From contig JAFPWX010000017.1 in assembly GCA_017412645.1 (NCBI GenBank), forward strand, positions 102,284-166,283: a stretch of DNA of 64,000 nt, given 5' to 3'. A program made the translations under genes and the position numbers. Origin of the DNA: Bacteroidales bacterium. GTDB lineage: Bacteria > Bacteroidota > Bacteroidia > Bacteroidales > UBA932. The first letter of the stretch is position 1. The number at the start of each line of letters is the position of its first letter. The notes beneath the pieces were generated by a model that worked only from the letters and a program-made list of their open reading frames with translations, was not told where the DNA came from and did no database searches. Below, in pieces: positions 17,364 to 63,777 of this stretch.

Positions 17364-18905
17364 TTAGAGCTTGCGAAGGAGGTTGGTGAGGTTGACTTTT
17401 GCGTCGATGCGGGCGCGGAGCTCGGCAACCGGCACGCGCTCCTGGGCCATCGTGTCACGGTCGCGCAGGGTCACGCAACCGTCTTCCAGAGAATCGTGGT
17501 CCACAGTGACGCAGAACGGAGTGCCGATGGCATCCTGCCTGCGGTAGCGGCGGCCGATGGTGTCTTTCTCTTCGTACTGGCAGGCGAAGTCGTAACGGAG
17601 GTCTTTCATGATCTCCTGGGCCATGCCGGTAAGACGCTCGTCGTTCTTGAGGAGCGGCAGCACTGCGACCTTCACGGGAGCCAGTGCGGCGGGGATCCTG
17701 AGCACTACGCGGCTCTCGCCGTTTTCGAGCTCTTCCTGGGTGTAGGCGTGCGAAAGCACGGTGAGGAACATACGGTCCACGCCGATACTCGTCTCAACGC
17801 AATAGGGAGTGTATTTCTCGCCCGTTTCGGGATCGAAGTACTGGAGATTGCGGCCGCTGAGCTTCTGGTGGTTGCCCAGGTCGAAATCGGTGCGGGAATG
17901 GATGCCTTCGAGCTCCTTGAATCCGAAGGGGAAGCGGAACTCGATGTCGGTGGCGGCGTTAGCGTAATGGGCCAGCTTCTCGTGATCGTGGAAGCGGTAG
18001 TTGTCGTCCCCGAAGCCGAGGGCCTTGTGCCACTTCATGCGCTCCTCTTTCCAGTAGGCGAACCACTCCATTTCGGTGCCGGGCTTGCAGAAGAATTCCA
18101 TCTCCATCTGCTCGAATTCGCGCATGCGGAAGATGAACTGACGGGCCACCACCTCGTTGCGGAAGGCCTTACCTATCTGGGAGATACCGAAGGGGATCTT
18201 CATACGGCCGGTCTTCTGTACGTTGATATAGTCCACGAAGATGCACTGGGCGGTTTCCGGACGGAGATAGACCTTGTCGGCTCCCTCGCCGGTGCTGCCG
18301 AACTGTGTGCTGAACATGAGGTTGAACTGGCGCACGTCGGTCCAGTTCTTGGTGCCGGAGATGGAGCAGACTATGCCGCAGTCGAGGATAATCTGCTTAT
18401 ATTCATCGAAATTGTTGGTCTCTTCCGCCTTCTTGTAACGCTCGTGGATCTCGTCGTAACGGGCCTTTTCACGCAGCACGTTGGGGTTGGTCTCGCGGAA
18501 CTTGGCCTCGTCGAAGGACTCGCCGAAGCGCTTGCGGCCTTTCTCGACCTCTTTCTCGATCTTCTCCTCAATCTTGCCAAGATAGTCCTCGATGAGGTTG
18601 TCGGCGCGATAGCGCTTCTTGCTGTCGCGGTTGTCGATGAGAGGGTCGTTGAAGGCCGCCACGTGGCCGCTCGCAACCCAGGTGTTGGGGTGCATGAACA
18701 CGGCCGCGTCGATACCGACGATGTTCTCGTGGAGACGATTCATGGCATCCCACCAGTATTTCTTTATGTTATTCTTGAGCTCGACGCCCATCTGGCCGTA
18801 GTCGTACACGGCGGCCAGGCCGTCATAGATTTCGCTCGAAGGGAAAATGAATCCGTACTCTTTGCAATGGGCTACGAGTACCTTGAAAAGTTCGTCCTGT
18901 GTCAT
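17364..18905 (-). CDS. glyS: Glycine--tRNA ligase (single-chain type)
   Basis: 513 residues from the ATG at 18903-18905; a longer frame upstream lacks homology and this start has a promoter element just before it. Class II motifs are visible: YDYGQMGVELKNNIKKYWW near the N-terminus, RPETAQCIF, FGISQIGKAFRNE (motif 2), CVETSIGVDRMFL (motif 3), and a C-terminal anticodon-binding domain (LAPVKVAVLPLLKNDE). This is the alpha2 type, not the alpha2beta2 type of E. coli, so the symbol glyS (glyQS in some schemes) refers to a single chain. It charges tRNA-Gly in the cytoplasm. Confidence 0.95.
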   Translation of the reverse strand: MTQDELFKVLVAHCKEYGFIFPSSEIYDGLAAVYDYGQMGVELKNNIKKYWWDAMNRLHENIVGIDAAVFMHPNTWVASGHVAAFNDPLIDNRDSKKRYRADNLIEDYLGKIEEKIEKEVEKGRKRFGESFDEAKFRETNPNVLREKARYDEIHERYKKAEETNNFDEYKQIILDCGIVCSISGTKNWTDVRQFNLMFSTQFGSTGEGADKVYLRPETAQCIFVDYINVQKTGRMKIPFGISQIGKAFRNEVVARQFIFRMREFEQMEMEFFCKPGTEMEWFAYWKEERMKWHKALGFGDDNYRFHDHEKLAHYANAATDIEFRFPFGFKELEGIHSRTDFDLGNHQKLSGRNLQYFDPETGEKYTPYCVETSIGVDRMFLTVLSHAYTQEELENGESRVVLRIPAALAPVKVAVLPLLKNDERLTGMAQEIMKDLRYDFACQYEEKDTIGRRYRRQDAIGTPFCVTVDHDSLEDGCVTLRDRDTMAQERVPVAELRARIDAKVNLTNLLRKL

Positions 18906-18909
18906 GTTA

Positions 18910-18917
18910 CAAAGATA
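18910..18917 (-). promoter_or_regulatory. -7 element 4 nt upstream of glyS ATG
   Basis: On the minus strand this reads TATCTTTG, a full match to TAnnTTTG, followed by 4 nt and the glyS ATG. It lies between the prohibitin stop and glyS. No TTG is seen at the usual -33 distance. If used, the mRNA would start at or inside the start codon region. Confidence 0.45.
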
Positions 18918-18922
18918 GTTTT

Positions 18923-19720
18923 TTACTTCGGAATGTCGATAAACGGAACGGCATTTCCGAGCATGTACTGCGGGAGTTTTCCATCCCACTTCTGAACCGC
19001 CTCATACTGAGTGAGTTTGGGGTTGGCGGTAAGGGCCGACGCCTTGATCTGCATTGCCTTTGCTTCGGCTTCGGCGGTGATGATCTTCTGGTTGGCCTCT
19101 TCCTGGATGCGGATGGTGTTGTTCTTGGCGGTGAGAGCCTTCTGCTCTGCCACCTGCTTGTCCACGATGCTCTGTTCGAAAGCGTCGTCGTACTCGATGT
19201 TCACCATCTGGAAGTGTACGTTGCGCACATAATCGCCGGGCAGCTGGGCGTCCAGTTCGCGCTCGACCGATTTACGCACCTCGTCGCGGTTACCCACAAT
19301 ATCAGCCGCATTATAGCCGCCGATTACATCCTTGAGCACGCCCTCAATCACCGGGGTAATGATCTTTGCGATGTAGTTGTTACCCACATTGCTGTAGAGC
19401 AGAGCCATGTTTTCCGGAACCGGGTCGAAGTTGAGCACGTAGCGCACATCGGCGGTCTGGATGTCCTTGGTGTAGGACGGGGCGTTCTCTTCGAGCTTGA
19501 CGGTCTGGATGCTCATTTTGTGGATCGTCTGCACAAAGGGGATCTTGATGTGCAGGCCGGCCTCGACTACTTCAGGCTTGATCTTTCCGAAAGTTGCGAT
19601 AACTCCCCTCTGGGTAGAGGAGACGCTGTAGAATCCGGAAAGGATGAAGATGACGACGGCGGCGATGATGAGAGTCGCGGCCACGGCCTTTTTCTGATTA
19701 GCGGGATTTGTGTGTTGCAT
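18923..19720 (-). CDS. Prohibitin/SPFH-domain membrane protein
   Basis: 265 residues from the ATG at 19718-19720; a TTG nine codons upstream is possible but lies deeper in folK. A short cytoplasmic start is followed by one membrane segment at about 13-32 (VAATLIIAAVVIFILSGFYS). The SPFH domain follows (STQRGVIATFGKI, GLHIKIPFVQ, YVLNFDPVPENMALLY). A coiled-coil Ala/Glu/Lys-rich helix ends the protein (EQKALTAKNNTIRIQEEANQ). Prohibitin-like proteins form large membrane rings that modulate proteases and membrane domains. The start overlaps the folK end by 23 bp. Confidence 0.9.
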   Translation of the reverse strand: MQHTNPANQKKAVAATLIIAAVVIFILSGFYSVSSTQRGVIATFGKIKPEVVEAGLHIKIPFVQTIHKMSIQTVKLEENAPSYTKDIQTADVRYVLNFDPVPENMALLYSNVGNNYIAKIITPVIEGVLKDVIGGYNAADIVGNRDEVRKSVERELDAQLPGDYVRNVHFQMVNIEYDDAFEQSIVDKQVAEQKALTAKNNTIRIQEEANQKIITAEAEAKAMQIKASALTANPKLTQYEAVQKWDGKLPQYMLGNAVPFIDIPK

Positions 19721-20180: not shown

Positions 20181-20185
20181 ATCGT

Positions 20186-20933: not shown

Positions 20934-22153
20934 TTCAACATTTTTATTGCCTTCTTCAGGCTTTTGATAAAGTATTCCGCCTCTTCCTGGGTATTGTACG
21001 GAGCGAATGACGCCCGCACCATGCCGGTAACTCCATAGCGGTCCATCAGAGGCTCCGCGCACATCTGCCCGGAACGTACGGCTATGCCCATTTTGTCAAG
21101 GATAAGCGCCAGATCTTCATGGTGGGCCCCTTCAACTGTGAAGGAGAATACTGGTATCTTCTCTTCTGGGGCCTCCGGCACGCCGAAAAGACGCAGTCCG
21201 GGAATATCCTGAAGAGCCTCTAGCATATAGCGTTTCACCCCCTCCAGTTCAGGATAATTGCGGAATTTATAAACCCACGCAATGGCATGACCGAAGGTTG
21301 GAACGCCGGCCAGATTCTGTGTTCCCGCCTCGAACTTGTGCGGCACCGAGGCGTAGGTGCTCTTTTCCCACTTTACCGTTCCTACCATCTCTCCTCCTCC
21401 CATGTATGGCGGAAGCGAATCGAGAAGCGCCTTTTTCCCCCAGAGAACACCCGTCCCCGGAGCAGCGTAGAGCTTATGCCCGGAGAAGGCATAGAAGTCC
21501 GCGCCCATCGCCTGAACGTCAGTCTTGCAATGAACCACGCCCTGCGCTCCGTCCACCACGAGAAGGACTCCTCGGGAGTGACAATAATCCGCAATCTGCC
21601 TTACGGGATTCACCAGACCAAGCACGTTGGATACCTGGGCGACGGCGCAGATCCGGGTGCGGTCGCTTATCAGACGAGGAAGCTCCTCGAGCCGGAGAGC
21701 GCCCCTTTCATCCACAGGCAACACCTTAATTTTCAGGTTTTTACGCTCTGCCAGGAATTGCCAGGGAAGGATATTGGAGTGGTGCTCTTCTTCTCCTATA
21801 AGAATCTCGTCGCCTACGTTCAGGAAGCCTTTTCGCTCGCCAAGACAGAATGCAAGCAGGTTTATCGCCTGCGTGGTTCCGCTGGTGAAGACTACCTCCT
21901 TCGGAGAATTTGCGTTTATGAAGTCCGCTACTTCTTCGCGGGCAGCCTCAAATTCCTCGGTAGCCTTGGCCGAGGTGAAATGAACGGCGCGGTGGAGGTT
22001 TGCGCTGTAGCGCGCAGACATCCAGTCCCACTTTTCTATCACGCTTCGAGGACGCAGCGAAGTGGCCGCATTGTCCAGATAGACAAGCGGTTTGCCGTAG
22101 ACTTTTGTGGAAAGCTGCGGGAATTGTTCGCGCAATTCTTCAATCGATGACAT
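20930..22153 (-). CDS. sufS: Cysteine desulfurase SufS
   Basis: 407 residues. The PLP-binding Lys lies in FYAFSGHKLYAAPGTGVLWG, the substrate-side Cys in RSGQMCAEPLMD, and the N-terminal substrate loop in YLDNAATSLRP. This is a group II desulfurase that removes sulfur from cysteine for Fe-S cluster assembly. It is first in the series sufS-sufE-sufT-folK-prohibitin. A TAnnTTTG element lies 7 nt before its ATG, in a 41 bp region shared with divergent ruvA. Confidence 0.95.
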   Translation of the reverse strand: MSSIEELREQFPQLSTKVYGKPLVYLDNAATSLRPRSVIEKWDWMSARYSANLHRAVHFTSAKATEEFEAAREEVADFINANSPKEVVFTSGTTQAINLLAFCLGERKGFLNVGDEILIGEEEHHSNILPWQFLAERKNLKIKVLPVDERGALRLEELPRLISDRTRICAVAQVSNVLGLVNPVRQIADYCHSRGVLLVVDGAQGVVHCKTDVQAMGADFYAFSGHKLYAAPGTGVLWGKKALLDSLPPYMGGGEMVGTVKWEKSTYASVPHKFEAGTQNLAGVPTFGHAIAWVYKFRNYPELEGVKRYMLEALQDIPGLRLFGVPEAPEEKIPVFSFTVEGAHHEDLALILDKMGIAVRSGQMCAEPLMDRYGVTGMVRASFAPYNTQEEAEYFIKSLKKAIKMLK

Positions 22154-22160
22154 AAGAGCA

Positions 22161-22168
22161 CAAATTTA
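22161..22168 (-). promoter_or_regulatory. -7 element of sufS
   Basis: Minus strand TAAATTTG, 7 nt from the sufS ATG. It faces the ruvA -7 element 13 bp away, so the whole 41 bp divergent region holds both. No clear -33 TTG is visible. Confidence 0.45.
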
Positions 22169-22181
22169 ACATTTATTTCGC

Positions 22182-22189
22182 TATTTTTG
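22182..22189 (+). promoter_or_regulatory. -7 element of ruvA
   Basis: TATTTTTG fits TAnnTTTG, with 5 nt (CAGAT) between it and the ruvA ATG at 22195. No TTG is present at the expected -33 position. Confidence 0.45.
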
Positions 22190-22194
22190 CAGAT

Positions 22195-22791
22195 ATGATC
22201 GACTATATAAAAGGAAAAATTTCGGAGCTTACTCCCACTCGCATCGTGCTCGAAAACGCCGGTATCGGCTATGCTATGGAAATCTCGCTGCAGACCTACA
22301 GCGCAATGGAAAATAAGGGTGAAGGAACCATCTATATTCAGAAACAGGTCAACCCCCGCGACGGAAGCGACGTGGACTATGGCTTTGCTACTCAGGACGA
22401 ACGCTCTCTGTTTCAATTAATTACGGGCGTTTCAGGGATGGGTGCAGCCTCTGCTCGAATGGTTCTCAGCTCCATGAGCTCGGAGGAGTTCCAGAAAGCA
22501 ATCCTGGCGGAGGACATCAACCGTATCAAGTCGGTCAAGGGCATAGGTCTCAAGACGGCCCAGCGCCTGATCCTTGAACTAAAGGATAAAATCACTAAGG
22601 GCGAAGGGGACTCTGCTCCCACCGAACTCTTCCGCACCGTGGACAATCAGGCCGTGGAAGAAGCAACGCAGGCTCTGGTCATGCTTGGCTTCAATAAGCC
22701 GGCGGTCGCAAAAGCCATTCAGAAAATTCTAGAGAAAAAACCCGACTCAAAGGTCGAAGAAATCATCAAGGCAGCATTACAGATGCTGTAG
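22195..22791 (+). CDS. ruvA: Holliday junction branch-migration protein RuvA
   Basis: 198 residues with the OB-fold domain first (MIDYIKGKISELTPTRIVLE), two helix-hairpin-helix motifs in the middle (LITGVSGMGAASARMVLSSM; INRIKSVKGIGLKTAQRLIL), and the C-terminal RuvB-contacting domain (EEATQALVMLGFNKPAVAKA). RuvA tetramers bind four-way junctions and recruit RuvB. ruvB is in the same window but 7 kb away on the other strand, not in a ruvAB operon. It converges on mnmG with a 3 bp gap. Confidence 0.96.
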   Translation: MIDYIKGKISELTPTRIVLENAGIGYAMEISLQTYSAMENKGEGTIYIQKQVNPRDGSDVDYGFATQDERSLFQLITGVSGMGAASARMVLSSMSSEEFQKAILAEDINRIKSVKGIGLKTAQRLILELKDKITKGEGDSAPTELFRTVDNQAVEEATQALVMLGFNKPAVAKAIQKILEKKPDSKVEEIIKAALQML

Positions 22792-22794
22792 TTT

Positions 22795-24663: not shown

Positions 24664-25095
24664 CTATTTCTCTCCAGTAACGGATTCCCTGAGGGAAAGG
24701 TAGTAATCTTCTTTACTTCTCATCGTCTTCTGATCTTCCGGAGTATGGTCGTCATATCCGATAAGATGAAGAAGTCCGTGAACCATGACTCTTCGAAGTT
24801 CCACGGGGAACTCGGCCCCATAGAAGGAAGCATTATCGCGGACGGAGTCCACACTGATAAAAAGATCTCCCGAGAGAATATTTCCTTCGACATAATCGAA
24901 AGTGATTATGTCGGTGAAGTAATCGTGTCCCAGATACTTGATGTTGACATCCAGTATATAAGGATCGGAACAAAAAATTATGTTAACATCGCCTATTCTT
25001 TTAGCCTCCGCCTCGGCAACGAAACGAAGCCAGCGATTGTTCGCAAGTTTGCCCTTCAGATCGAAATCAATACCCTCTGAGAAATACTTAATCAT
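24664..25095 (-). CDS. ybeY: Endoribonuclease YbeY (rRNA maturation)
   Basis: 143 residues with the zinc-binding signature HGLLHLIGYDDHT near the C-terminus, in place of the family HGxLHLxGYDH, and the upstream GDLFISVDSVRDNA segment. YbeY processes the 3' end of 16S rRNA and takes part in ribosome quality control. It is immediately upstream of mnmG with no gap. A TAnnTTTG element ends 4 nt before its ATG. Confidence 0.93.
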   Translation of the reverse strand: MIKYFSEGIDFDLKGKLANNRWLRFVAEAEAKRIGDVNIIFCSDPYILDVNIKYLGHDYFTDIITFDYVEGNILSGDLFISVDSVRDNASFYGAEFPVELRRVMVHGLLHLIGYDDHTPEDQKTMRSKEDYYLSLRESVTGEK

Positions 25096-25099
25096 GGCG

Positions 25100-25107
25100 C
25101 AAAGTTA
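25100..25107 (-). promoter_or_regulatory. -7 element of ybeY
   Basis: Minus strand TAACTTTG, 4 nt from the ybeY ATG at 25093-25095. No clear TTG lies 19-21 bp upstream. It shares a 101 bp divergent region with the tonB promoter. Confidence 0.45.
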
Positions 25108-25125: not shown

Positions 25126-25156
25126 TTGGATTTCAAAAGAAAAATTAATACCTTTG
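25126..25156 (+). promoter_or_regulatory. tonB promoter (-33 TTG, -7 TACCTTTG)
   Basis: TTG at 25126-25128, a 20 bp spacer, then TACCTTTG at 25149-25156: a full match to the Bacteroidota housekeeping promoter. The ATG of tonB follows after 40 nt, so this is one of the few promoters in the window that predicts a normal leader. Confidence 0.65.
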
Positions 25157-25196: not shown

Positions 25197-25886
25197 ATGG
25201 AAATCAAAAAATCAGAGAAGGCAAGCCTGGAGAACAAGAGACTCTTCTTCATAGAAATCGGTCTCGTCATTTCTCTCGGGATAGTACTTGGAGTCTTCGA
25301 ATACAGCTCCAAGGAAAAGAAGCAGTCTGTAATGGAGGCCGTAAGTGAGGAAATCATCGAAGACGAAATGGTTCCCATCACTCAGGAAGCTCCCCCGCCG
25401 CCACCGGCAACCCCCGACATTCCCGTCCTGTCGGACCAGATAGATATCGTAGACGATGAAATCGAGGTAGACGACAACATCCTCAACCTCGAAGACGACG
25501 CCAATCTCGGCGTTGAAATCATGGACTACGTTGAAGAAGTGGAGGAAGAGGTGGTGGAAGAAGAGGCTATTCCTTTCCAGCTGGTGGAAACCAAGCCCAC
25601 CTTCATGGGAGGCGACGCCAACACCTTCCGCACCTGGGTCAATGAGCGCCTCGAATACCCCGAAATCGCTAAGGAAAACGGTATTCAGGGCCGCGTCACC
25701 CTCCAGTTCACTGTAGGTTCCGACGGCAAGGTTTCAAACGTAAAGGTTCTCCGTGGCGTGGATCCCACCCTGGATAAGGAAGCTGTGCGCGTCGTATCCA
25801 TGTCTCCCAAGTGGAGCCCCGGAAAACAAAGGGACCGTGCAGTAAAGGTTACCTACACCTTCCCTGTTATCTTCCAGCTTAGGTAA
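25197..25886 (+). CDS. TonB-family energy transducer
   Basis: 229 residues. A short cytoplasmic N-terminus is followed by one membrane segment at about 20-38 (FIEIGLVISLGIVLGVF). The periplasmic spacer begins with a short APPPPPATP stretch but is otherwise very acidic (VDDEIEVDDNILNLEDDAN; VEEVEEEVVEEE), unlike the Pro/Lys-rich spacer of classical TonB. The C-terminal TonB domain (about 140-229) contains YPEIAKENGIQGRVTLQFTV and the final VKVTYTFPVIFQ. It should couple ExbBD energy to TonB-dependent receptors such as the SusC proteins here. exbB and exbD are not in the window. Confidence 0.92.
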   Translation: MEIKKSEKASLENKRLFFIEIGLVISLGIVLGVFEYSSKEKKQSVMEAVSEEIIEDEMVPITQEAPPPPPATPDIPVLSDQIDIVDDEIEVDDNILNLEDDANLGVEIMDYVEEVEEEVVEEEAIPFQLVETKPTFMGGDANTFRTWVNERLEYPEIAKENGIQGRVTLQFTVGSDGKVSNVKVLRGVDPTLDKEAVRVVSMSPKWSPGKQRDRAVKVTYTFPVIFQLR

Positions 25887-25891
25887 GCACT

Positions 25892-29893: not shown

Positions 29894-30913
29894 TTAGAAT
29901 AGTGTATTGTCAGACGAAGGGGACTTGGCTATTCCCAGATGATCGTAAGCCTTATCCGTGGCGATACGTCCCCTCTGGGTGCGAAGAATATATCCTTCCT
30001 TTATGAGGAAAGGTTCGTAAACCTCCTCAAACGTGCCCTGATCCTCACCTATTGCCGTAGCAATGGTATTGGCTCCGACCGGGCCTCCCTTGAACTTATT
30101 GATGATAGTATCGAGAATGCGGTTGTCGATACTGTCGAGTCCGCGCACATCTATATGAAGCTTGTCCAACGCATACTTGGTAATCTTCAGGTCGATAACC
30201 CCGGATCCCATCACCTGAGCGAAATCCCGTACACGGCGCAGCAGGCTGTTGGCTATACGCGGCGTACCCCTGGAACGCAGGGCAATTTCGCGAGCGGCTT
30301 CATCCTCAATGGGAATATTCAGTATACCTGCGGAACGACGGACTATCGCCTCCAGATCGGCCGAATCATAATACTCGAGAGCACAGTCGATACCGAAGCG
30401 GGCGCGGAGCGGCGAGGTGAGAAGACCCTTGCGGGTGGTGGCACCTATCAGGGTAAACGGAGCCAGATTGATCCGCACCGACCTCGCACCGGGTCCCTTA
30501 TCTATCATGATATCAATCACATAGTCCTCCATAGCAGAATAGAGATATTCCTCTACTTCGGGGGAGAGACGATGGATTTCATCTATAAAGAGCACGTCGC
30601 CCTCTTCCAGGGAAGTGAGCAGACCTGCCAGATCCCCTGGCCTGTCCAGCACCGGACCGGAGGTGATTTTCATATTCACCCCCATTTCATTTGCGATGAT
30701 ATGTGCCAGAGTGGTCTTTCCAAGACCCGGAGGCCCGTGGAACAGGGTATGATCCAGAGACTCCCCGCGCATCTTGGCGGCCTTGATATAAATATTCAGG
30801 TTCTGGACAATCTCCCGCTGACCGGTGAAATCTTCCAACTCCTGCGGGCGGATAATTCCGTCCAATTCCTTATCTTTGCTGTCCGGAGCGTTGCGGGGAT
30901 CGAAATCTGCCAT
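29894..30913 (-). CDS. ruvB: Holliday junction ATP-dependent helicase RuvB
   Basis: 339 residues. Walker A is [19 protein letters not shown], Walker B is [19 protein letters not shown], sensor 1 is [20 protein letters not shown] (containing the arginine finger), and a winged-helix domain ends the protein ([18 protein letters not shown]). It drives branch migration with RuvA. The gene faces away from mfd across a 248 bp AT-rich region with DnaA-box-like repeats. A minus-strand TATATTTG (-7-like) lies 26 nt before its ATG. Confidence 0.96.
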
Positions 30914-31161
30914 CTTCAGAGGTCTGGAGTTACGGATTACAAATATAATTCTTTTTCTTTAAAAAGGATGATTTTTATATTGGTGTTGAAATGTTGAAAA
31001 CTGATGCAACTATTTCAGTATCAATAAAATATAAAGGTTGAAAGTTGTTGGAGAAATCGTTGATGAAAAGTTGATTACGGGCTCAATCCCGGGCTGTCCC
31101 CGTCGTGGCCTCCATTATCAACAGGGTTATACACAGCTTTTCAACCATTTAATACGGGCAA
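30914..31161. other. AT-rich divergent region with DnaA-box-like cluster (candidate oriC)
   Basis: This is the longest internal gap apart from the window end. Three near-DnaA boxes lie in tandem: TTATCAACA (31115-31123), TTATACACA (31127-31135, exact fit to TTATNCACA) and TTTTCAACC (31138-31146). Inverted relatives lie on the other side of the gap: TGTTGAAAT (30984-30992), TGTTGAAAA (30992-31000), GGTTGAAAG (31036-31044), CGTTGATGA (31058-31066) and AGTTGATTA (31069-31077). The ruvB-side part is AT-rich, as an unwinding element would be. ruvB and mfd diverge from it. A parS-like site is 8 kb away. Confidence 0.5.
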
Positions 31162-34347: not shown

Positions 34348-34360
34348 ATGCTTATTTTTG
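34329..34360 (+). promoter_or_regulatory. coaX promoter (TTTG, 20 bp, TATTTTTG)
   Basis: TTTG at 34329-34332 inside the last codons of mfd, a 20 bp spacer, then TATTTTTG at 34353-34360. The coaX ATG follows after 6 nt, so transcription from this promoter should begin at or next to the start codon. It is among the best full promoter matches in the window. Confidence 0.6.
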
Positions 34361-34366: not shown

Positions 34367-35092
34367 ATGGCTAATTTGGTCATCGAAATAGGCAACACCG
34401 CTCTCAAGGCGGCCTGGGCGGAGGGCAAAACCCTCGGCAAAACCTTCCGTTACCAGGGCGAAAAGACCCTCGAATTCATCCTTTCCATCACGGAAAAGGA
34501 AAAGCCCGAGGTGATGGCGGTCGTGTGCGGCCGTCCGTTCTCCGGGGCGGAAGAGGAAATCCTGCGGGGCGAGTGCCGCCATCTGATGCTGCTCGACAGC
34601 GCCCATCCGGACTATCTGCAACGTTACGGCATCCCCGAATACCTCAGCTACGACCGCGCCTGTTCCATCATGGCGGTGCGTCACCTCTTCAAGGGCAAAT
34701 CCTGCACGGTGTTCGATTTCGGCACCACCCTCACCATAGATCTGGTCGATGCCGACGGCCTCTACCGAGGTGGCAACATCTCCCCGGGCTGCCGCACCCG
34801 CTTCAAGAGCCTCAACCGCTACGCAAAGGCTCTGCCCATGGTCAACACCCCCGCCAGAGTCCCTCAGGAAGGCACCTCCCTGGAGAGCTCCATCGAGTCG
34901 GGAGTGATTTCGGGCATAATGTTTGAAATCGAGGGCTACGTGCGCCAGCTGCCCGGCAACGTGATCGTATTCACGGGCGGCGACGCCATATACTTTGCCA
35001 AGCGGATGAAGTACTCGCTCTTCGTTATGAGCAACCTGGTACTCGCCGGCCTGGCCATTATGACAGACGATTATGCCCAGAAGAACGTATAG
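34367..35092 (+). CDS. coaX: Type III pantothenate kinase
   Basis: 241 residues from the ATG at 34367 (a TTG three codons upstream lies inside the -7 element and is unlikely). Phosphate-binding and family motifs: LVIEIGNTALKAAW, TVFDFGTTLTIDLVDADG, YRGGNISPGCRTRFKSLNRY and VIVFTGGDAIYFAKRM. It phosphorylates pantothenate, the first step of coenzyme A synthesis, and is not feedback-inhibited by CoA in known members. Its end overlaps the next gene by 20 bp. Confidence 0.94.
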   Translation: MANLVIEIGNTALKAAWAEGKTLGKTFRYQGEKTLEFILSITEKEKPEVMAVVCGRPFSGAEEEILRGECRHLMLLDSAHPDYLQRYGIPEYLSYDRACSIMAVRHLFKGKSCTVFDFGTTLTIDLVDADGLYRGGNISPGCRTRFKSLNRYAKALPMVNTPARVPQEGTSLESSIESGVISGIMFEIEGYVRQLPGNVIVFTGGDAIYFAKRMKYSLFVMSNLVLAGLAIMTDDYAQKNV

Positions 35093-41638: not shown

Positions 41639-41646
41639 CAAAGATA
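41639..41646 (-). promoter_or_regulatory. -7 element of ychF
   Basis: Minus strand TATCTTTG, 18 nt from the ychF ATG. A TTG lies only 11 bp upstream (minus strand, 41658-41660), the same unusual spacing as at the ECF sigma gene. Confidence 0.4.
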
Positions 41647-46507: not shown

Positions 46508-46508
46508 A

Positions 46509-46540
46509 TTGCAAATTTAGCAAAATTATCCGTACCTTTG
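46509..46540 (+). promoter_or_regulatory. folA promoter (TTG, 21 bp, TACCTTTG)
   Basis: TTG at 46509-46511, a 21 bp spacer, TACCTTTG at 46533-46540, then 6 nt to the folA ATG. The -33 element overlaps the edge of the thyA -7 element (46512-46519), so polymerase binding at one promoter may exclude the other. Confidence 0.6.
46512..46519 (-). promoter_or_regulatory. -7 element of thyA
   Basis: Minus strand TAAATTTG, 4 nt from the thyA ATG at 46505-46507. It abuts the -33 TTG of folA on the other strand. No good -33 for thyA is visible. Confidence 0.45.
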
Positions 46541-46546
46541 GAGAGT

Positions 46547-47035
46547 ATGCAAAAATGTCTGATAGTGGCGATAGCCGACAATAACGCGATAGGGGTGAAA
46601 GGGGATCTGCCCTGGCATCTCGGCGAAGATCTGAAGTATTTCAAGCGTAAAACCAAAGGCCATCCGGTGATCATGGGCCGCACCACATATTTCTCGCTTC
46701 CAAAGCACCCGCTTCCGCAGCGCAAGAATATCGTGCTTAACCTTGGAGGAGACCCGATTCCGGAAGCGACTTGTGTGTATTCCTTCGAAGAGGCCTACAA
46801 GGCCGTGCGTCCGGCACGCAAGTGCTTCATCATGGGCGGAGCCTCGGTATACAAGGCCGCCTTGCCGGATATGGACACCCTCTACATCACCCACGTCCAT
46901 ACCGTCATTGAAGGGGCCGACGCCTTCTTCCCTGAAATAGACCCGAAGATCTGGCATCCCAGTTGGAAGAGCCGCATGCATCACGACGACGCCACGGGCT
47001 ACGACTTCCAGTTCGTAATCTACCGCAGGAAATAA
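46547..47035 (+). CDS. folA: Dihydrofolate reductase
   Basis: 162 residues from the ATG at 46547; the frame is open far upstream into thyA on the other strand, but homology begins here (CLIVAIADNNAIGVKGDLPW). Cofactor and substrate motifs: HPVIMGRTTYFSL, KCFIMGGASVYKAALP and DTLYITHVH. It regenerates tetrahydrofolate from the dihydrofolate made by ThyA. Its stop overlaps the start of the symporter gene as TAATG. Confidence 0.96.
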   Translation: MQKCLIVAIADNNAIGVKGDLPWHLGEDLKYFKRKTKGHPVIMGRTTYFSLPKHPLPQRKNIVLNLGGDPIPEATCVYSFEEAYKAVRPARKCFIMGGASVYKAALPDMDTLYITHVHTVIEGADAFFPEIDPKIWHPSWKSRMHHDDATGYDFQFVIYRRK

Positions 47036-54248: not shown

Positions 54249-55357
54249 ATCTTGGGTTCGTGACCGAACTTGGCTGCGAACTGCTTTTTGGCCTCAGCGA
54301 TGAAGGCGTCGTAGAGTTCGTCCTTCACCAGGTTGATGGTGCAGCCGCCGAAGCCGCCGCCCATTACGCGCGAGCCGGTGACGTCCATCTTGCGGGCAAG
54401 CTTATTCAGGAAGTCGAGCTCTTCGCAGGAAACCTCATACAGCCTTGAAAGCCCGAAGTGGGTCTGGTACATCATTTCGCCCACGGTCTCGTAGTCGTCG
54501 CGCTCAAGAGCGTCACACACATCGAGCACGCGCTGTACTTCGCCGATAACATATTCGGCGCGGAGGAAATCCTCCTCGGGAATCTGCTCACGCACCTCGT
54601 CGAGCCACACGCGCTTGGCATCCGAAAGGAACTCCACTTCAGGGTGGTTCTTGCGTATTGCGGCGGCGGCGTTCTCGCAGGAAGCGCGGCGCTTGTTGTA
54701 AGCGCTGGAAGCCAGCTCATGCTTCACGCAGGAGTCGATAAGAACCAGCTTGTATCCCTTGGGATTGAACGGGAAGTATTTGTATTCCAGAGTTTTGCAG
54801 TTGAGGCGAATGAGGCTGCCCTCCTTGCCGAAGCAGGAGGCGAACTGGTCCATTATGCCGCACTTTACACCGCAGTAGTTGTGCTCGGTACTCTGTCCGA
54901 TCTTGGCCAGCTCGAACTTGTCGATACCGTTCTGGAAGAGTTCGTTGAGAGCGAAAGCGAAGCAGCTCTCCAGGGCGGCTGAAGAAGAAAGGCCGGCACC
55001 CAGCGGAACATCTCCGGCAAATACGGCGTCGAAGCCCTTCACGGTGCCGCCGCGTTTGATGGTTTCGCGGCATACGCCGAACACGTAACGGGCCCACTGC
55101 TTTTCGGGCTTATCTTCCTCGCCCAGGCCGAAGAAAGCCTCTTCATTGTAGTCCAGGCTGTACACGCGTACGGTGTTCTTGCCGTTGGGCTTGATTTCCG
55201 CGATTATACCTTTGTCGATAGCTCCGGGGAACACATAACCGCCATTGTAGTCGGTGTGCTCGCCGATAAGGTTGATACGACCTGCGGATGCGAAGATTCT
55301 GCCGCCCTCTCCGTAGAGTTCGACAAACTTGGAATGGATTTTCTGTTGCATTGACAT
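54206..55357 (-). CDS. galK: Galactokinase
   Basis: 383 residues. GHMP motifs: GRINLIGEHTDYNGGYVFPG (galactose signature), VPLGAGLSSSAALESCFAFA (ATP-binding motif 2) and SRVMGGGFGGCTINLVK (motif 3). It phosphorylates galactose in the Leloir pathway together with galM at 48 kb; galT and galE are not in the window. It is the last gene of the long minus-strand series that begins with dapB, 11 bp after hydE. Confidence 0.96.
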   Translation of the reverse strand: MSMQQKIHSKFVELYGEGGRIFASAGRINLIGEHTDYNGGYVFPGAIDKGIIAEIKPNGKNTVRVYSLDYNEEAFFGLGEEDKPEKQWARYVFGVCRETIKRGGTVKGFDAVFAGDVPLGAGLSSSAALESCFAFALNELFQNGIDKFELAKIGQSTEHNYCGVKCGIMDQFASCFGKEGSLIRLNCKTLEYKYFPFNPKGYKLVLIDSCVKHELASSAYNKRRASCENAAAAIRKNHPEVEFLSDAKRVWLDEVREQIPEEDFLRAEYVIGEVQRVLDVCDALERDDYETVGEMMYQTHFGLSRLYEVSCEELDFLNKLARKMDVTGSRVMGGGFGGCTINLVKDELYDAFIAEAKKQFAAKFGHEPKIYDVVVSDGAREIK

Positions 55358-55368: not shown

Positions 55369-56493
55369 TTATTGTTTTGCGTTATCCTTCAAAGATAGCG
55401 ATTTTTTCGGGGAAAAATCTCCCAACTGCCCATAGCCGATAACGATCTTGCCCTTGCTGAGGCTTTCTCCCATCGAGCAGAAGGGGAACACGCAATCGCG
55501 GCAGATATGGTTTTCGCCTTTTCCGGCAGAAGGGCAGTCCTTTATCAGGGTTTTCCGGTCGTAAAGATTATACTTCACCATTTCTTCCGCGGGGGTGACG
55601 TTGGGCATAAACACGTTCGCTCCTGCGAGTATGCCCATCTCGCGTCCGCGAGGATCCAGCACTTCCAGCGCCGTGGCCGCCGCGATATTGATATCCGGCA
55701 TCAGCAGGCGAAGCAGGGCAATCATCTTCAGCCCCAGGGTAAAACGCTCCGCATCAGGCGGATACGAGACCCCGGACAGGGTGAGCGGAGTGCCGGGATG
55801 CGGATTATAGGGCCCCATCCCTATCATTGGCGCACCGAAACTCTTATAGAACAGGAGGTCGTCTGCGAGGTCCGCACTCGTCTGGAACGGCATTCCTATC
55901 ATCGCTCCGGTTCCGGCCCGATAGCCTATGGCCTTGAGGTCCTGCAGGCACTCCAGACGCGTGTCGAAAGAGTGTTGCGAATCGTCCGGATGGATCTTCC
56001 GGTAGAGATCCGGATTGCTGGATTCTATCCTCAATAGATAGCGGTGGGCACCGGCCTCAAACCATTCTTCGTATACCTCCCTGGACTGTTCGCCAAGCGA
56101 GAGCGTGATGCCGAGGGGAGGATCCCCCCCGGTATCGATGGCTTTGATGGCGCGCACCAGACGGGTGATTTTGCGGATGAATGCCGGATCTTTCCGTTCT
56201 CCGCCCTGAATGACCACGGAGCCGTAGCGTCTCTTCGCGGCGATGGTGGCGGCCTCAAGCACCTGCTCGTCGCTGAGTTCATAACGCGGACAGTCCATGT
56301 CGCGGCGGATGCCGCAGTAAAGACAATCCTTCGCGCAGATATTGGAGATTTCAATGAGACCGCGGAGATAGACGGTTGCGCCCACGGAAGCGACCTTCAC
56401 CCGATACGCCTCCTGAAGCAATTCCTTAGTGAACGCCGGATCTTTAGATTCCAGCACCGCAATGAGTCCTTCCCGGCTGAGATTAACCTCCAT
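55369..56493 (-). CDS. hydE: [FeFe]-hydrogenase maturation radical SAM protein HydE
   Basis: 374 residues. Radical-SAM cluster CX3CX2C at Cys53, Cys57 and Cys60 (ICAKDCLYCGIR). SAM-binding and barrel motifs follow (VVIQGGER, YLLRIESSNPDLYRKIHP, GTGAMIGMPFQT, IGMGPYNPHPGTPL). A second cysteine group near the C-terminus (CPSAGKGENHICRDCVFPFC) fits the accessory cluster of HydE. HydE helps build the dithiomethylamine-bearing H-cluster with HydF and HydG, neither of which is here. Its presence implies hydrogen metabolism in the organism. Confidence 0.9.
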   Translation of the reverse strand: MEVNLSREGLIAVLESKDPAFTKELLQEAYRVKVASVGATVYLRGLIEISNICAKDCLYCGIRRDMDCPRYELSDEQVLEAATIAAKRRYGSVVIQGGERKDPAFIRKITRLVRAIKAIDTGGDPPLGITLSLGEQSREVYEEWFEAGAHRYLLRIESSNPDLYRKIHPDDSQHSFDTRLECLQDLKAIGYRAGTGAMIGMPFQTSADLADDLLFYKSFGAPMIGMGPYNPHPGTPLTLSGVSYPPDAERFTLGLKMIALLRLLMPDINIAAATALEVLDPRGREMGILAGANVFMPNVTPAEEMVKYNLYDRKTLIKDCPSAGKGENHICRDCVFPFCSMGESLSKGKIVIGYGQLGDFSPKKSLSLKDNAKQ

Positions 56494-56506
56494 TCTCGTG
56501 TTAGAT

Positions 56507-57124
56507 TTAGCGTATATGCCCCGCCAGCCAGGCGGCGTTCACTCGAACCAGACCGTGTACGGCGAGTTCCGGATTCCGGCCGACAATGCCGGCGGCGTCT
56601 TCATAAACGCTGAAGCCGGTGCCCACGACCTGCATCTCTCCGCTCTCGGGGTAGGTGAGCAGAATGCGGCGGTCGGCCCCTTCGAGCCGGAAGAACTTGA
56701 AGTCGGCGTCGGTCTTGCCCATCTCCTGGGCAGTCACGTACTTGCAGATCTCCATGGCCACATCGTCCAGTCCGGCTTCGGCAATCTTTATCTTCTCCAT
56801 CATCTCCCCGGGGGTGTCCACGATTCGGGCCGAGTAGTCCTGCAGCCCCTCTTCGGAGGCGATGGTCTCAGCCATCCGAGCCTCCACTTCCGGCACGCCG
56901 TCGGTAAGCCAGAGCAGCAGCTTCTGCGCGGGATCATGGTAGAGCAACGGATACTTTATAAGGTTGTCCGCACCGCAGCGGGGGCAGGTCCAAAGGAAGA
57001 GTTTGCCTTCCAACAACTCGGCCCGGAGTTCCGGATTCTCCTGTGCGTTGATTATGTTCCAGGCGGGAATCTCTTCCTCCGCCCCGCACCGCCTGCAGCG
57101 TGCTATTACAGTTCTGTCTGCCAT
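56507..57124 (-). CDS. CpXC domain protein
   Basis: 205 residues from the ATG at 57122-57124 (a TTG three codons upstream is less likely). The N-terminal region carries two CxxC pairs, CRRCGAE at about 10 and CPRCGAD at about 47, typical of the CpXC zinc-ribbon-like domain, followed by a KYPLLYHDPAQKLLLWL segment. The C-terminal part (about 90-205) is unassigned. Function is unknown. It lies between the esterase and hydE with short gaps (16 and 13 bp). Confidence 0.75.
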   Translation of the reverse strand: MADRTVIARCRRCGAEEEIPAWNIINAQENPELRAELLEGKLFLWTCPRCGADNLIKYPLLYHDPAQKLLLWLTDGVPEVEARMAETIASEEGLQDYSARIVDTPGEMMEKIKIAEAGLDDVAMEICKYVTAQEMGKTDADFKFFRLEGADRRILLTYPESGEMQVVGTGFSVYEDAAGIVGRNPELAVHGLVRVNAAWLAGHIR

Positions 57125-57140
57125 TAAACGCAAAGATTCT

Positions 57141-58505: not shown

Positions 58506-58514
58506 AACGAAAAA

Positions 58515-59822
58515 CTATTTTCTGGTTATCACGGCTCCGAGTGCGCGCAGGCGGCCGTCGATATCCTCGTAACCACGGTCAATCTGTTCGATGTTGTCGA
58601 TCTCACTGGTTCCCTTGGCGCTCATTGCAGCAAGCACCATTGCGATACCTGCACGGATATCGGGGCTGGTCATGCGGTTGGCGCGCAGCTGGAACTTGTG
58701 ATCGTGGCCAATCACTACAGCGCGGTGCGGGTCGCAGAGGATGATCTGGGCACCCATGTCGATCAATTTATCGGTGAAGAACAGGCGGCTCTCGAACATC
58801 TTCTGGTGAATGAGGACGCTACCCTTGCACTGGGTGGCGACCACCAGAAGCACGCTCAGGAGGTCCGGTGTGAGGCCGGGCCAGGGGGCGTCGGCGATGG
58901 TCATGATGGAGCCGTCGATGAAAGACTCGATCTCGTAGCTCTCCTGTTCCGGCACGAAGATGTCGTCGCCCCGCTGTTCGAGCTTGACGCCGATACGCTT
59001 GAATGCCTCCGGAATGATGCCGAGGTTCTCATACGACACGTCCTTGATGGTGAGCGAGCTCTTGGTGATTGCGGCCATGCCGATGAAAGAGCCCACCTCG
59101 ATCATATCCGGCAGGATGCGGTGGTTCGCGCCGTGGAGTTTCTTTACTCCGTGAATGGTAAGCAGATTGCTGCCTATGCCTTCGATGTTCGCGCCCATGG
59201 CGTTGAGAAGACGGCAGAGCTGCTGCACGTACGGTTCGCAGGCGGCATTGTAGATGGTGGTGTCGCCGTCGGCCAGACTGGCCGCCATGACGATGTTGGC
59301 GGTACCGGTAACGGAGGCTTCGTCCAGAAGCATATAGGTTCCGCGCAGACCCTTGGGTGCGGTGAGATGATAGGCGCGCACCTTGCTGTCGTATTCGTAC
59401 GTGGCCCCGAGGTTCACGAAGCCCTCGATGTGGGTGTCCACCCTGCGGCGGCCGATCTTGTCTCCACCCGGTTTGGGGAACCATGTCTCGCCGAAGCGGG
59501 CCAGGAGCGGGCCGGAAATCATCACCGATCCGCGGAGCGAGGCGCAGAGCTTCACGAATTCCGGGCTGCCGACATACTCGCTGTTGAGCGTGGCGGCCTG
59601 GAAAGTGTACTCGCCCTTTTCGTGACGGGTTACAGCCACCCCCATCTTCTCCAGTAGTCCGATGAGGTTCTTCACGTCCAGGATTTCCGGAACGTTGGAG
59701 ATGCGGACAGCCTTGTCCGTGAGGAGCACTGCGCTCAGGATCTGCAGCGCTTCGTTCTTTGCACCCTGCGGAGTAATGCTTCCGCTCAGCCGGTGCCCGC
59801 CTTCGATGATGAATGTCGACAT
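58515..59822 (-). CDS. murA: UDP-N-acetylglucosamine 1-carboxyvinyltransferase MurA (Asp-type active site)
   Basis: 435 residues from the ATG at 59820-59822. Motifs: GGHRLSGSITPQGAKNEALQ (substrate Lys/Asn), LRGSVMISGPLLARFG, and the active loop KPGGDKIGRRRVDTH. In E. coli the loop has the Cys that fosfomycin alkylates; here the aligned residue is Asp121. The rest is well conserved through NIEQIDRGYEDIDGRL. It makes the first committed precursor of peptidoglycan. A TAnnTTTG element lies 5 nt before the ATG although the upstream CBM9-like gene ends only 2 bp away. Confidence 0.96.
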   Translation of the reverse strand: MSTFIIEGGHRLSGSITPQGAKNEALQILSAVLLTDKAVRISNVPEILDVKNLIGLLEKMGVAVTRHEKGEYTFQAATLNSEYVGSPEFVKLCASLRGSVMISGPLLARFGETWFPKPGGDKIGRRRVDTHIEGFVNLGATYEYDSKVRAYHLTAPKGLRGTYMLLDEASVTGTANIVMAASLADGDTTIYNAACEPYVQQLCRLLNAMGANIEGIGSNLLTIHGVKKLHGANHRILPDMIEVGSFIGMAAITKSSLTIKDVSYENLGIIPEAFKRIGVKLEQRGDDIFVPEQESYEIESFIDGSIMTIADAPWPGLTPDLLSVLLVVATQCKGSVLIHQKMFESRLFFTDKLIDMGAQIILCDPHRAVVIGHDHKFQLRANRMTSPDIRAGIAMVLAAMSAKGTSEIDNIEQIDRGYEDIDGRLRALGAVITRK

Positions 59823-59824
59823 AT

Positions 59825-60496
59825 CTACAAAGATAGTAAAAACTCCAGCTCGGTGAAGAATTCGGGACGATGATAGTCCGGCTTCGCCGTGTCGATGGGG
59901 GCGAAGGTGACGAAGTGGGGAACCTTCAGGGCATCGCCGCACTTGTAGAAATTGCCGCGGGCGTGCAGGCCGGCGAAACTCCGCAGGCCGCTGCGCCACA
60001 GGGCCTCTACGGGGATGTCTGCCCGAAGGGCCCATGGGCCGGCGGCAGGCCTCTCCTCAAAGCCGACCCTGGAACCCTCCACGGAAGGCATGAAAACGGT
60101 CCCTGAGCCTGTCGAAGGGCCGTCAAGAGAAACCTCTCTCCGGACGCTTGCCAGCACCTCTGCCGGAGCGTCTTCAGGGTCGAACCTGCCCGTGCGCCAG
60201 GAACAGACCATGGTGCCGGCGGCGTTGAACTCGAAATTGTAGTAGTGCGGATCGTCTTGAACGGGCTGGAAGAAAAATTCCACGCAGGAATCTTTGTAAA
60301 CGTCGTGTCCGTCGCGTGTCTCCACGGCGCGCACCGTTTGTTCATCTACCCGGTACTCCAGGTGCAGCACATCTCCAGAGTGCCAAAGACGGAACTCTAC
60401 CAAAGGCTTATAAGGCCACCCGGCCTCCCAGTTGAGGAAATCCAGCCGGTGCCATTCTCCCGGCTGCCCAAAAGGAACTTTCAAAGAAATATCCAT
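59825..60496 (-). CDS. CBM9-like (carbohydrate-binding family 9-like) protein
   Basis: 223 residues without a signal peptide. It follows the CBM9-like pattern: FRLWHSGDVLHLEYRVDEQT, a central VYKDSCVEFFFQPVQDDPHY with NFEFNAAGTMV, and a C-terminal FAGLHARGNFYKCGD with a final PEFFTELEFLL. Bacteroidota carry many such single-domain proteins of unknown role; some are parts of glycan enzymes. Residues about 127-133 (GPSTGSG) come from a dispersed repeat (60101-60119) inserted in frame. It is 2 bp from dapD and 2 bp from murA. Confidence 0.72.
   Translation of the reverse strand: MDISLKVPFGQPGEWHRLDFLNWEAGWPYKPLVEFRLWHSGDVLHLEYRVDEQTVRAVETRDGHDVYKDSCVEFFFQPVQDDPHYYNFEFNAAGTMVCSWRTGRFDPEDAPAEVLASVRREVSLDGPSTGSGTVFMPSVEGSRVGFEERPAAGPWALRADIPVEALWRSGLRSFAGLHARGNFYKCGDALKVPHFVTFAPIDTAKPDYHRPEFFTELEFLLSL
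59828..59835 (-). promoter_or_regulatory. -7 element of murA
   Basis: Minus strand TATCTTTG, 5 nt from the murA ATG, inside the 3' end of the CBM9-like gene. No exact TTG at -33 (GAA/TTC there instead). Confidence 0.4.
60101..60119. repeat. Copy of the dispersed CCTGAGCCTGTCGAAGG repeat
   Basis: CCCTGAGCCTGTCGAAGGG matches a short repeat known to be scattered through many unrelated bacterial genomes, usually translated as GPSTGSG or RQAQGPS depending on strand and frame. Here it lies in frame in the CBM9-like gene as a probable loop insertion. No second copy was noticed in this window. Confidence 0.6.
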
Positions 60497-60498
60497 GA

Positions 60499-62135: not shown

Positions 62136-62151
62136 ATGATATTAGCTATTA

Positions 62152-62616: not shown

Positions 62617-62630
62617 ACTGTAATAATCCT

Positions 62631-63080
62631 TTATTCCGCTCTTTGTGTTACTGAAACAGAACCAAAGACATCCATACACTCCATGCCAATACTAATTCTT
62701 CTGGAAGTGCCGGTATTGTTCTCATCAACAATAACTACTAAATACTTAGTAAGCAAATTCTTATTGCTTCGAGGAACATAGGCGCGGAACCAACTGCCGG
62801 ACAGCATATCAAAGTCCTTAGATAATGTAATGTCGTCTTTACCATATTCCACGCGTGCCACTTCCGTCCAGACGTTATCAACATAGGAATACTCGTGCGC
62901 ATCGCAAATCCACCAACCTCCATAATTCGTTACACTCGCAACAGCACAACCGCCTTTTGCGGCGAAAAAAATCTCCCTATTTTCAATCTTCATAGGCTCC
63001 CAATCACCTTCTGATGATTTACAGCCGCAAAAAAGGCAAACGGTTAATAGGAGGACGGATAATGAACGAACTCTGTTCAT
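62631..63080 (-). CDS. Small BACON-like lipoprotein B (inserted in dap operon)
   Basis: 149 residues with a lipoprotein signal (CLFCGC; Cys18 or Cys20). It is a paralogue of the gene downstream: MKIENREIFFAAKGGCAVAS, WWICDAHEYSYVDNVWTEVA, DMLSGSWFRAYVPRSN and SVSVTQRAE line up with its partner. The start overlaps the dapB stop as ATGA, so translation is coupled to dapB. AT-rich compared with dapB and dapA. No catalytic motif. Confidence 0.65.
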   Translation of the reverse strand: MNRVRSLSVLLLTVCLFCGCKSSEGDWEPMKIENREIFFAAKGGCAVASVTNYGGWWICDAHEYSYVDNVWTEVARVEYGKDDITLSKDFDMLSGSWFRAYVPRSNKNLLTKYLVVIVDENNTGTSRRISIGMECMDVFGSVSVTQRAE

Positions 63081-63739
63081 ATGATGAGATCTTTGAATTC
63101 GTGAACTCCGGTCAGGCCTTCGGTCATGAGGGCGGCCACCACGGCGCCTTCGGCCAGGCCTTCGCGGGAGAAGGCCTCGTGGGTGAGGGACAGACGGTCG
63201 CAGCTGCCGGTGAGTTCCACGGTGTGGATGCCGGGGACCTCCCCTTCGCGGAAAGATTCGATGTCGGGCACCACGCCGAGCCCCTTCTCCACTATGTCTC
63301 CCAGAATCTTTGCCGTGCCGCTCGGTTTATCGAGCTTATGGATATGATGCGTCTCGCTGATATGGGCCTTGTAGCCCTTGTCTTTCAGCACCGCCGACAC
63401 CTTTTCCACCGCGGCGAAAAGGGCGATCACGCCGATTGAGAAATTGGCCGACCAGATGAGGGTGCAGCCCTGGCGGGCGAACTCAGCGAGCACTTCGTCC
63501 TTGATGTCGTACCAGCCGGTAGTGCCCACCACGGCGGCCTTGAAATGCTCCGCGATAAAACGGTAGTTGGCCCGGAACGCTTCCGGGAAGGTAAAATCTA
63601 TGCACACCGCTTCGCGGGCGAGGGCCGGGTCTACCGAGCAGATGTCTTCGCTGCAAAGCGCCGGTTCGATGCCCCTTGCGCGGAGGCGATCCTCAACCAT
63701 ATGACCCATGCGGCCGTATCCTGAAATGACTACTTTCAT
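63077..63739 (-). CDS. dapB: 4-hydroxy-tetrahydrodipicolinate reductase
   Basis: 220 residues. NAD(P)-binding VVISGYGRMGHMVEDRL; family motifs VGTTGWYDIKDEV, WSANFSIGVIALFAAVEK and the catalytic HHIHKLDKPSGTAKILGDI. It is somewhat shorter than E. coli DapB (273). It reduces the DapA product in lysine/diaminopimelate synthesis. It is the first gene of the long minus-strand series and has a full promoter 6 nt before its ATG. Confidence 0.95.
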   Translation of the reverse strand: MKVVISGYGRMGHMVEDRLRARGIEPALCSEDICSVDPALAREAVCIDFTFPEAFRANYRFIAEHFKAAVVGTTGWYDIKDEVLAEFARQGCTLIWSANFSIGVIALFAAVEKVSAVLKDKGYKAHISETHHIHKLDKPSGTAKILGDIVEKGLGVVPDIESFREGEVPGIHTVELTGSCDRLSLTHEAFSREGLAEGAVVAALMTEGLTGVHEFKDLII

Positions 63740-63745
63740 AACTTA

Positions 63746-63777
63746 CAAAGTTAGTAAAAACTTGGCTTACCCGCAAA
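63746..63777 (-). promoter_or_regulatory. dapB promoter (TTTG, 20 bp, TAACTTTG)
   Basis: Read on the minus strand: TTTG at 63777-63774, a 20 bp spacer counted from TTG, then TAACTTTG at 63753-63746, then 6 nt to the dapB ATG. A full consensus match. The -33 part lies in the left arm of the inverted repeat CCGCAAAG/CTTTGCGG (63771-63778 and 63798-63805). Confidence 0.65.

Follow-up and report, generated by a model that had tools for sequence, protein, structure and literature searches.

The box TAnnTTTG, the putative -7 element of sigma-ABfr type housekeeping promoters, stands directly before the start codon of nine genes in a 64-kb stretch (55.8% GC; hereafter the window) of contig JAFPWX010000017.1 from a Bacteroidales bacterium. 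Very probably, many -7 boxes of this genome lie 4-8 nucleotides (nt) before ATG, so that the predicted mRNAs are leaderless or nearly so. Leaderless mRNAs have long been known, and judging from the DNA, this uncultured gut bacterium probably makes routine use of a translation start mode that is supposed to be rare. The boxes have two preferred distances from the start codon and the composition of promoters, they are conserved in a sister species, and they are enriched in the genus, whose name is taken from named loci.

Spacing between the box and the start codon

A genome-wide count of TAnnTTTG by distance from gene starts, compared with shuffled controls, had been set beforehand as the test of the proposal. 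It revealed strong enrichment at gaps of 4-8 nt between box and ATG and a trough at 9-17 nt. Genes were called in the window and 20 further stretches (464 kb together, 26% of the genome) by a motif-blind gene finder that relies solely on coding composition and the start codon. The counts come from a retrained run; the first run differed slightly (341 genes, 49 rows with gaps 3-8). Among 340 sampled genes, 48 have a box at gap 4-8, five at 9-17, and 52 at 18-60, where one gene may count in two classes and a second box before thyA is one of the five intermediate cases. Shuffling of the 60-nt upstream regions (mononucleotide) places a box at gap 4-8 in a mean of 0.56 genes, with a maximum of 3 in 500 runs, compared with the 48 seen. 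These 48 genes, called leaderless below, make up 14% of the sample, or about one in seven, and account for approximately 46% of the boxes visible within 60 nt (48/105). The sequence-only reading had held leaderless initiation to be a regular mode in this lineage. Regular it appears to be, but not the sole mode, as 52 genes of the sample (gap 18-60) are predicted to be leadered compared with the 48 leaderless.

The lower edge of the distribution is at gap 4. Two boxes lie at gaps 0-3 in this sample and four in the pool of seven sampled genomes (1197 genes), where gaps of 4-8, 9-17, and 18-26 hold 83, 16, and 91 boxes, respectively. The pattern was also counted over the whole 1.80-Mb genome without gene calls, which takes in any ATG, also within leaders and genes. 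TAnnTTTG-N4-7-ATG occurs 170 times compared with 22 for a reversed-pattern control, and the corresponding counts are 102 and 56 at gaps 9-16 and 161 and 44 at gaps 20-27. Per nt of gap, the pattern exceeds its control by 37, 5.8, and 14.6 in these three classes, respectively, which is the same order as in the gene-based counts.

In Flavobacterium johnsoniae, the distance from the box to the transcription start is reported as 4-5 nt (PMC6847099), and in F. psychrophilum, the box is reported to span -12 to -5 (PMC9723704). With a start 4-5 nt after the box, as in Flavobacterium, a gap of 4 would put +1 on the A of ATG, and gaps of 4-8 would correspond to leaders of 0-4 nt. The peak at gap 4-8 and the published spacing together support the claim that these mRNAs begin at or next to ATG. 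The lower edge at gap 4 fits this spacing, under which a closer box would begin transcription inside the codon. The start codon is ATG in all 48 leaderless genes, which discriminates only weakly because it is also ATG in 329 of the 340 sampled genes.

Composition and context of the boxes

By composition, the TAnnTTTG boxes are ordinary promoters. G at the nn positions is found in 0% of the 48 leaderless and ~1% of the 52 leadered boxes, and both kinds have an AT-rich upstream flank and a pyrimidine followed by a purine after TTTG. T occupies position -1 in 69% of leaderless genes. Leadered genes have A-rich leaders, with A at -3 in 47% and at -13 in 63%. Shine-Dalgarno-like GGAG, GAGG, or AGGA occurs in 1/48 leaderless and 2/51 leadered genes and does not discriminate between them. 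Bacteroidota are described as naturally lacking Shine-Dalgarno sequences (PMC6847099), and the StartLink authors report AT-rich, non-canonical binding sites in the FCB group, the clade with Bacteroidota.

Of 84 divergent genes, 33 have a box at gap 4-8; such a box is found in 7 of 62 genes with wide spacing and in 8 of 183 same-strand genes with close spacing. The claim that operon-internal genes lack the pattern holds for most of them; the last eight genes do carry the box. Spacers of divergent leaderless genes measure 28-115 bp in 28 of 33 cases. The shortest, at 28 bp (L098:3421-3448), separates an acyl-ACP thioesterase-like gene from a CN-hydrolase/NAD synthase gene and contains two TAnnTTTG back to back, each leaderless for its gene. 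Because this short spacer holds both boxes, the upstream part of each promoter falls in the neighbouring coding sequence. At L100:11011-11316, a gene that is S10-like by eye and follows an EF-G-like gene has its own box at gap 8 in a 20-bp spacer, which suggests that a ribosomal operon has a leaderless promoter inside it.

Boxes in the window

Both strands of the window together hold 22 TAnnTTTG: nine at the genes listed below, four at 18-40 nt from other starts, and nine elsewhere. The full box had been reported directly before ATG in nine genes, and all nine positions, with gaps of 4-7 nt, were confirmed on the sequence:

18910..18917, (-), glyS -7 box TATCTTTG, gap 4, ATG at 18905
22161..22168, (-), sufS -7 box TAAATTTG, gap 7, ATG at 22153
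22182..22189, (+), ruvA -7 box TATTTTTG, gap 5, ATG at 22195
25100..25107, (-), ybeY -7 box TAACTTTG, gap 4, ATG at 25095
34353..34360, (+), coaX -7 box TATTTTTG, gap 6, ATG at 34367; TTG 20 bp upstream
46512..46519, (-), thyA -7 box TAAATTTG, gap 4, ATG at 46507
46533..46540, (+), folA -7 box TACCTTTG, gap 6, ATG at 46547
59828..59835, (-), murA -7 box TATCTTTG, gap 5, ATG at 59822
63746..63753, (-), dapB -7 box TAACTTTG, gap 6, ATG at 63739

Among the 46 genes called in the window, six have a box at gap 4-8 compared with a mean of 0.067 in shuffled 60-nt upstream regions (maximum 2, 2000 shuffles). The TTG noted 20-21 bp upstream of the coaX, folA, and dapB boxes is present in the sequence. 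The gene names also stand, as NCBIfam matches each of the nine proteins to its stated family. The dapB match lies under the curated cut-off, no cut-off is reached for folA among the matches listed (25 of 29 families), and one is reached for coaX (TIGR00671) among the matches listed (25 of 31 families).

Four leadered genes of the window are used for comparison:

41639..41646, (-), -7 box of a YchF-type GTPase gene, gap 18, ATG at 41620
30940..30947, (-), -7 box of ruvB, gap 26, ATG at 30913
25149..25156, (+), -7 box of a TonB C-terminal-domain gene, gap 40, ATG at 25197
55390..55397, (-), -7 box of a galactokinase-like gene, gap 38, ATG at 55351

The ruvA and sufS genes are divergent and share a spacer of 41 bp. 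Also divergent are thyA and folA, whose promoter regions overlap (window 46508-46546); the second thyA box, TAATTTTG, lies at gap 13, within the avoided zone. As had been stated for the SusCD locus, no TAnnTTTG lies within 45 nt upstream of the SusC/SusD-type genes tested. The gene at 56507-57124 is preceded by AATCTTTG (window 57125-57138, (-)), which is one letter from TAnnTTTG at gap 6 to ATG. Given such a near match at this gap, counting exact TAnnTTTG only has probably overlooked some leaderless promoters.

Sister species and turnover between states

The sister species, represented by G304 (presumed to be RUG14270), was compared for seven of the nine genes, i.e., all except murA and dapB, with glyS compared via L002. 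Six of the seven still have a gap of 4-7 nt, with changes in the nn and spacer bases. Between this genome and the sister, the gap is 4 and 4 for glyS, 7 and 7 for sufS, 5 and 5 for ruvA, 4 and 4 for ybeY, 6 and 6 for coaX, and 6 and 5 for folA. The sister boxes are TAATTTTG at gap 6 for coaX and TATCTTTG at gap 5 for folA. The remaining gene, thyA, has an identical box in the sister with 17 nt more before ATG, which shifts the gap from 4 to 21, across the trough. The four leadered genes are leadered in the sister too, with gaps changing from 26 to 27 (ruvB), 40 to 34 (TonB-type), and 38 to 40 (galactokinase-like) and staying at 18 in the YchF-type gene.

With greater distance, the state turns over. 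Of 38 glyS loci compared, only L002 and L004 are leaderless by eye. A box lies within 75 nt in 6 of 30 thyA loci, with gaps of 4 (this genome), 21, 6, 6, 4, and 13. The locus with gap 13 falls in the avoided zone, and its sequence there resembles the end of another gene. Reciprocal-best ortholog pairs number 30 with G318, 6 with G311, 3 with G041, 3 with G345, and 2 with G351. These are too few for rates, and several partner starts are mis-called, as alignments begin at residue 24, 58, or 79 of the protein of this genome. Within these pairs, one gene that is leadered here and two that have no box here are leaderless in G318, and mutS is leaderless in both this genome and G311.

Distribution in the genus, the order, and the phylum

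The trait is pronounced in this group but differs in degree among its members, and it is also seen elsewhere. It was followed in 61 genomes (37 of the genus and 24 of other Bacteroidales families) by the ratio of background-subtracted excess per nt at gaps 4-7 to that at gaps 20-27. Genomes were compared by gene-based shares and per-nt excess rather than ranked by the reversed-pattern ratio, since the background is high in AT-rich genomes. The median excess ratio is 1.17 in the genus (n=37) compared with 0.54 in the other families (n=24), and it exceeds 1 in 22 of the 37 genus genomes compared with 1 of the 24 others. The value for this genome is 2.53. Little leaderless excess is seen in the same-genus genomes G308, G311, G319, G324, G325, and G327 (0.61, 0.41, 0.39, 0.24, 0.54, and 0.58, respectively), and such low ratios indicate gain or loss of the trait inside the genus.

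Gene-based counts at gaps 4-8, 9-17, and 18-60 were obtained for six other genomes. In the same genus, they are 20, 4, and 49 in G318 (270 genes) and 5, 2, and 43 in G311 (215 genes). The counts are 3, 1, and 23 in G345 (116 genes), 1, 0, and 13 in G351 (99 genes), 1, 1, and 14 in G332 (39 genes), and 5, 3, and 11 in G041 (118 genes), a member of another order. The trough is not filled in any of the six, with G041 and G332 too small to show one. As a share of boxes at gaps 4-60, where a few genes fall in two classes, gaps of 4-8 account for 48/105 in this genome, 20/73 in G318, 5/50 in G311, 3/27 in G345, 1/14 in G351, 1/16 in G332, and 5/19 in G041.

Among the genomes behind named loci, 13 were searched for the pattern at gap 4-7 and its control. 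Counts (pattern/control) are 180/26 in RUG14270, 188/43 in a Reindeer metagenome-assembled genome (MAG), 193/49 in UBA4360, 132/32 in Ca. Cryptobacteroides caccocaballi, 124/28 in Ca. C. intestinigallinarum, and 126/34 in Ca. Coprenecus merdipullorum. They are 83/42 in Bacteroidales E22 bin180, 79/21 and 97/101 in two Alistipes sp., 121/60 in a Prevotellaceae MAG, 158/89 in a Rikenellaceae MAG, and 384/354 and 211/126 in two more Bacteroidales. Across 296 genomes of the phylum, ~12 by eye reach at least 2-fold over control, five of them ~3-4 fold, and many are near or below 1. The ratio of this genome, 7.7, is the highest of the 296. Some distant Bacteroidota are also raised at gap 4-7: G041 at 2.7 fold and the f25 genomes G101, G105, G113, G136, and G144 at ~3-3.8 fold.

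Gene function and expression

Leaderless genes include glyS, murA, mutS, uvrA, dnaE, and a release factor, and leadered genes include those of enolase, EF-G, SecDF, and OmpH-like proteins. Profile scans covered 46 of the 48 sampled leaderless proteins (without L099:11971 and L100:11011), the products of folA, dapB, and ybeY, and 40 of 51 leadered proteins. At 1e-8, Pfam left 11 of the 40 leaderless proteins scanned and 6 of the 40 leadered ones without a match. A functional rule is not claimed, as RuvA and UvrA are leaderless but RuvB and UvrB are leadered. Expression level was considered as a cause and rejected. Codon bias towards S12, S7, and EF-G (S7 and EF-G named by eye) does not separate 47 leaderless from 50 leadered genes (p 0.11) or leaderless from operon-internal genes (p 0.997).

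Alternative explanations

The start codons used here are predicted, and translation might begin not at the proximal ATG but at a downstream in-frame start, which would give the mRNA a normal leader. An in-frame ATG lies within codons 2-25 in 10 of the 48 leaderless genes, with GTG and TTG starts left uncounted, whereas the other 38 have none there. The family profiles of thyA, ruvA, and murA align from residue 1, and those of PdxJ, YgbB, an Asp/Glu racemase, the PHP part of DnaE, and a pyridine nucleotide-disulphide oxidoreductase align from residue 3-5; profiles that begin so early fit these ATGs as real starts. The glyS genes open with similar codons in the leaderless relatives (L002 and L004) and in the others. 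For dapB, the assumed start is based on its N-terminal motif, not on a profile match. Taken as an account of the pattern, a downstream start is highly improbable. It is hardly to be expected, too, that TAnnTTTG near ATG is a translation signal, i.e., a ribosome-binding element, with transcription starting further upstream. Such a signal would suit a phylum that is described as using other upstream signals in place of Shine-Dalgarno sites (PMC6847099), but the box is distributed as promoters would be (33/84 divergent compared with 8/183 closely spaced same-strand genes), and its flanks are identical in kind when the motif lies at gap 18-60. A second TAnnTTTG 18-110 nt upstream is found in only 1 of the 48 leaderless genes, and the edge at gap 4 is sharp.

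Enrichment might instead be ordinary for Bacteroidota, with the genus looking extreme only as its higher GC lowers the background. In G041, 5 of 118 genes and 5 of 19 visible boxes are at gap 4-8, a few genomes of the phylum reach ~3-4 fold over control, and the distance between the genus and the others narrows when excess per Mb is used instead of the ratio. This explanation is nevertheless unlikely in view of the gene-based shares (48/105 here and 20/73 in G318 compared with 1/14 in G351 and 1/16 in G332) and of published leaderless values of ~4-13%. The background-subtracted per-nt ratios also set the genus apart from the 24 of other families, although related genomes are not independent.

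Several observations weigh against routine leaderless initiation as the reading of these data, or limit its reach. The trough is shallower in the pattern-only counts than in the gene-based ones, with an excess per nt at gaps 9-16 that is 0.39 of that at 20-27 in this genome; across the 61 genomes, the median of this quotient is 0.50 in the genus and 0.58 in the other families. The gene finder recovered six of the nine window cases, so the shares given above are approximate: it did not call folA or ybeY, and it placed the dapB start 10 codons too far downstream, so that dapB counts as leadered. TTG at a spacing of 19-20 accompanies 5 of 48 leaderless compared with 15 of 52 leadered boxes (Fisher p 0.026); the -33 motif is reported to be weak in F. 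johnsoniae as well (PMC6847099). Partners in G318 of seven genes leaderless here comprise one leaderless gene (dnaE), one leadered gene (ruvA, gap 19), and five without a box. The excess ratio is 1 or less in 15 of the 37 genus genomes, with the lowest values in G324 (0.24), G319 (0.39), and G311 (0.41). Bacteroides thetaiotaomicron and F. psychrophilum share the phylum and the promoter type, yet ~3.7% of 5' untranslated regions are reported to be shorter than 10 nt in the former (PMC7366714) and 5.5% of mRNAs to be leaderless in the latter (PMC9723704), unlike the ~46% of visible boxes predicted here. With so few leaderless mRNAs in these two species, the phylum is not generally leaderless.

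Relation to known systems

The boxes resemble sigma-ABfr promoters (-33 TTTG / -7 TAnnTTTG) in the -7 consensus, the AT-rich upstream flank, the TTG ~20 bp upstream in part of the cases, and the lack of G at nn, as in the TAHHTTTG of F. johnsoniae (PMC6847099). Unlike those promoters, which mostly lie at least 18 nt away, about half of the visible boxes here stand 4-8 nt upstream of ATG, and the -33 TTG is weaker at such boxes. The TA-led genes of Actinobacteria and Deinococcus-Thermus described by Zheng et al. 2011 (PMC3160421) are similar in having a box ~10 bp before the start and a substantial gene share, but the sigma consensus differs here.

For F. johnsoniae, 87% of leaders are reported to exceed 10 nt (PMC6847099). 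A survey of 953 genomes lists leaderless genes in 1 of 37 Bacteroidetes/Chlorobi genomes, at 2.4% (PMC3160421). This survey sought Pribnow-like signals only and could therefore miss TAnnTTTG; its authors allow an undercount and deem a large one unlikely. Among the titles and abstract openings listed by searches of PubMed Central, no report of frequent leaderless genes in this genus was found. The leaderless share would be new, at a predicted ~46% of visible boxes compared with published values of ~4-13%, under definitions that differ. A share well above the published values for the phylum, the two-state gap distribution, and the apparent indel jump of thyA would be the main new points.

Proposed mechanism and significance

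In the proposed mechanism, TAnnTTTG would act as the -7 element of a housekeeping sigma-ABfr type promoter, and transcription would begin on the A of ATG or 1-4 nt before it, if start sites lie as in relatives. The ribosome would then have to start on an AUG at the very 5' end, with neither a Shine-Dalgarno sequence nor an A-rich leader as a signal. Promoters of a second class would give leaders of ~14 nt or more, and leaders of ~5-13 nt would be avoided, leaving two separate initiation modes. Indels may shift genes between the modes, often in short divergent spacers, where compaction of the spacer may play a part. An even chance is given to the wider form of this proposal. Under it, Bacteroidota mRNAs would be two-state, with a leader of 0-4 nt or of at least ~14 nt, as the leadered pathway would fail on 5-13 nt; near half of the promoters of Cryptobacteroides-type lineages would be leaderless, and indels would carry genes from one state to the other.

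Published work, as far as cited here, makes leaderless mRNAs look rare in Bacteroidota. If the proposal is true, leaderless initiation would not be marginal but would rank as a main mode in gut bacteria of a widespread group. Leaderless genes with leadered orthologs in relatives would provide natural pairs for comparing the two initiation modes. The two-state rule would predict 5' ends from DNA alone, with a bearing on gene-start prediction and on how Bacteroidota ribosomes choose their starts.

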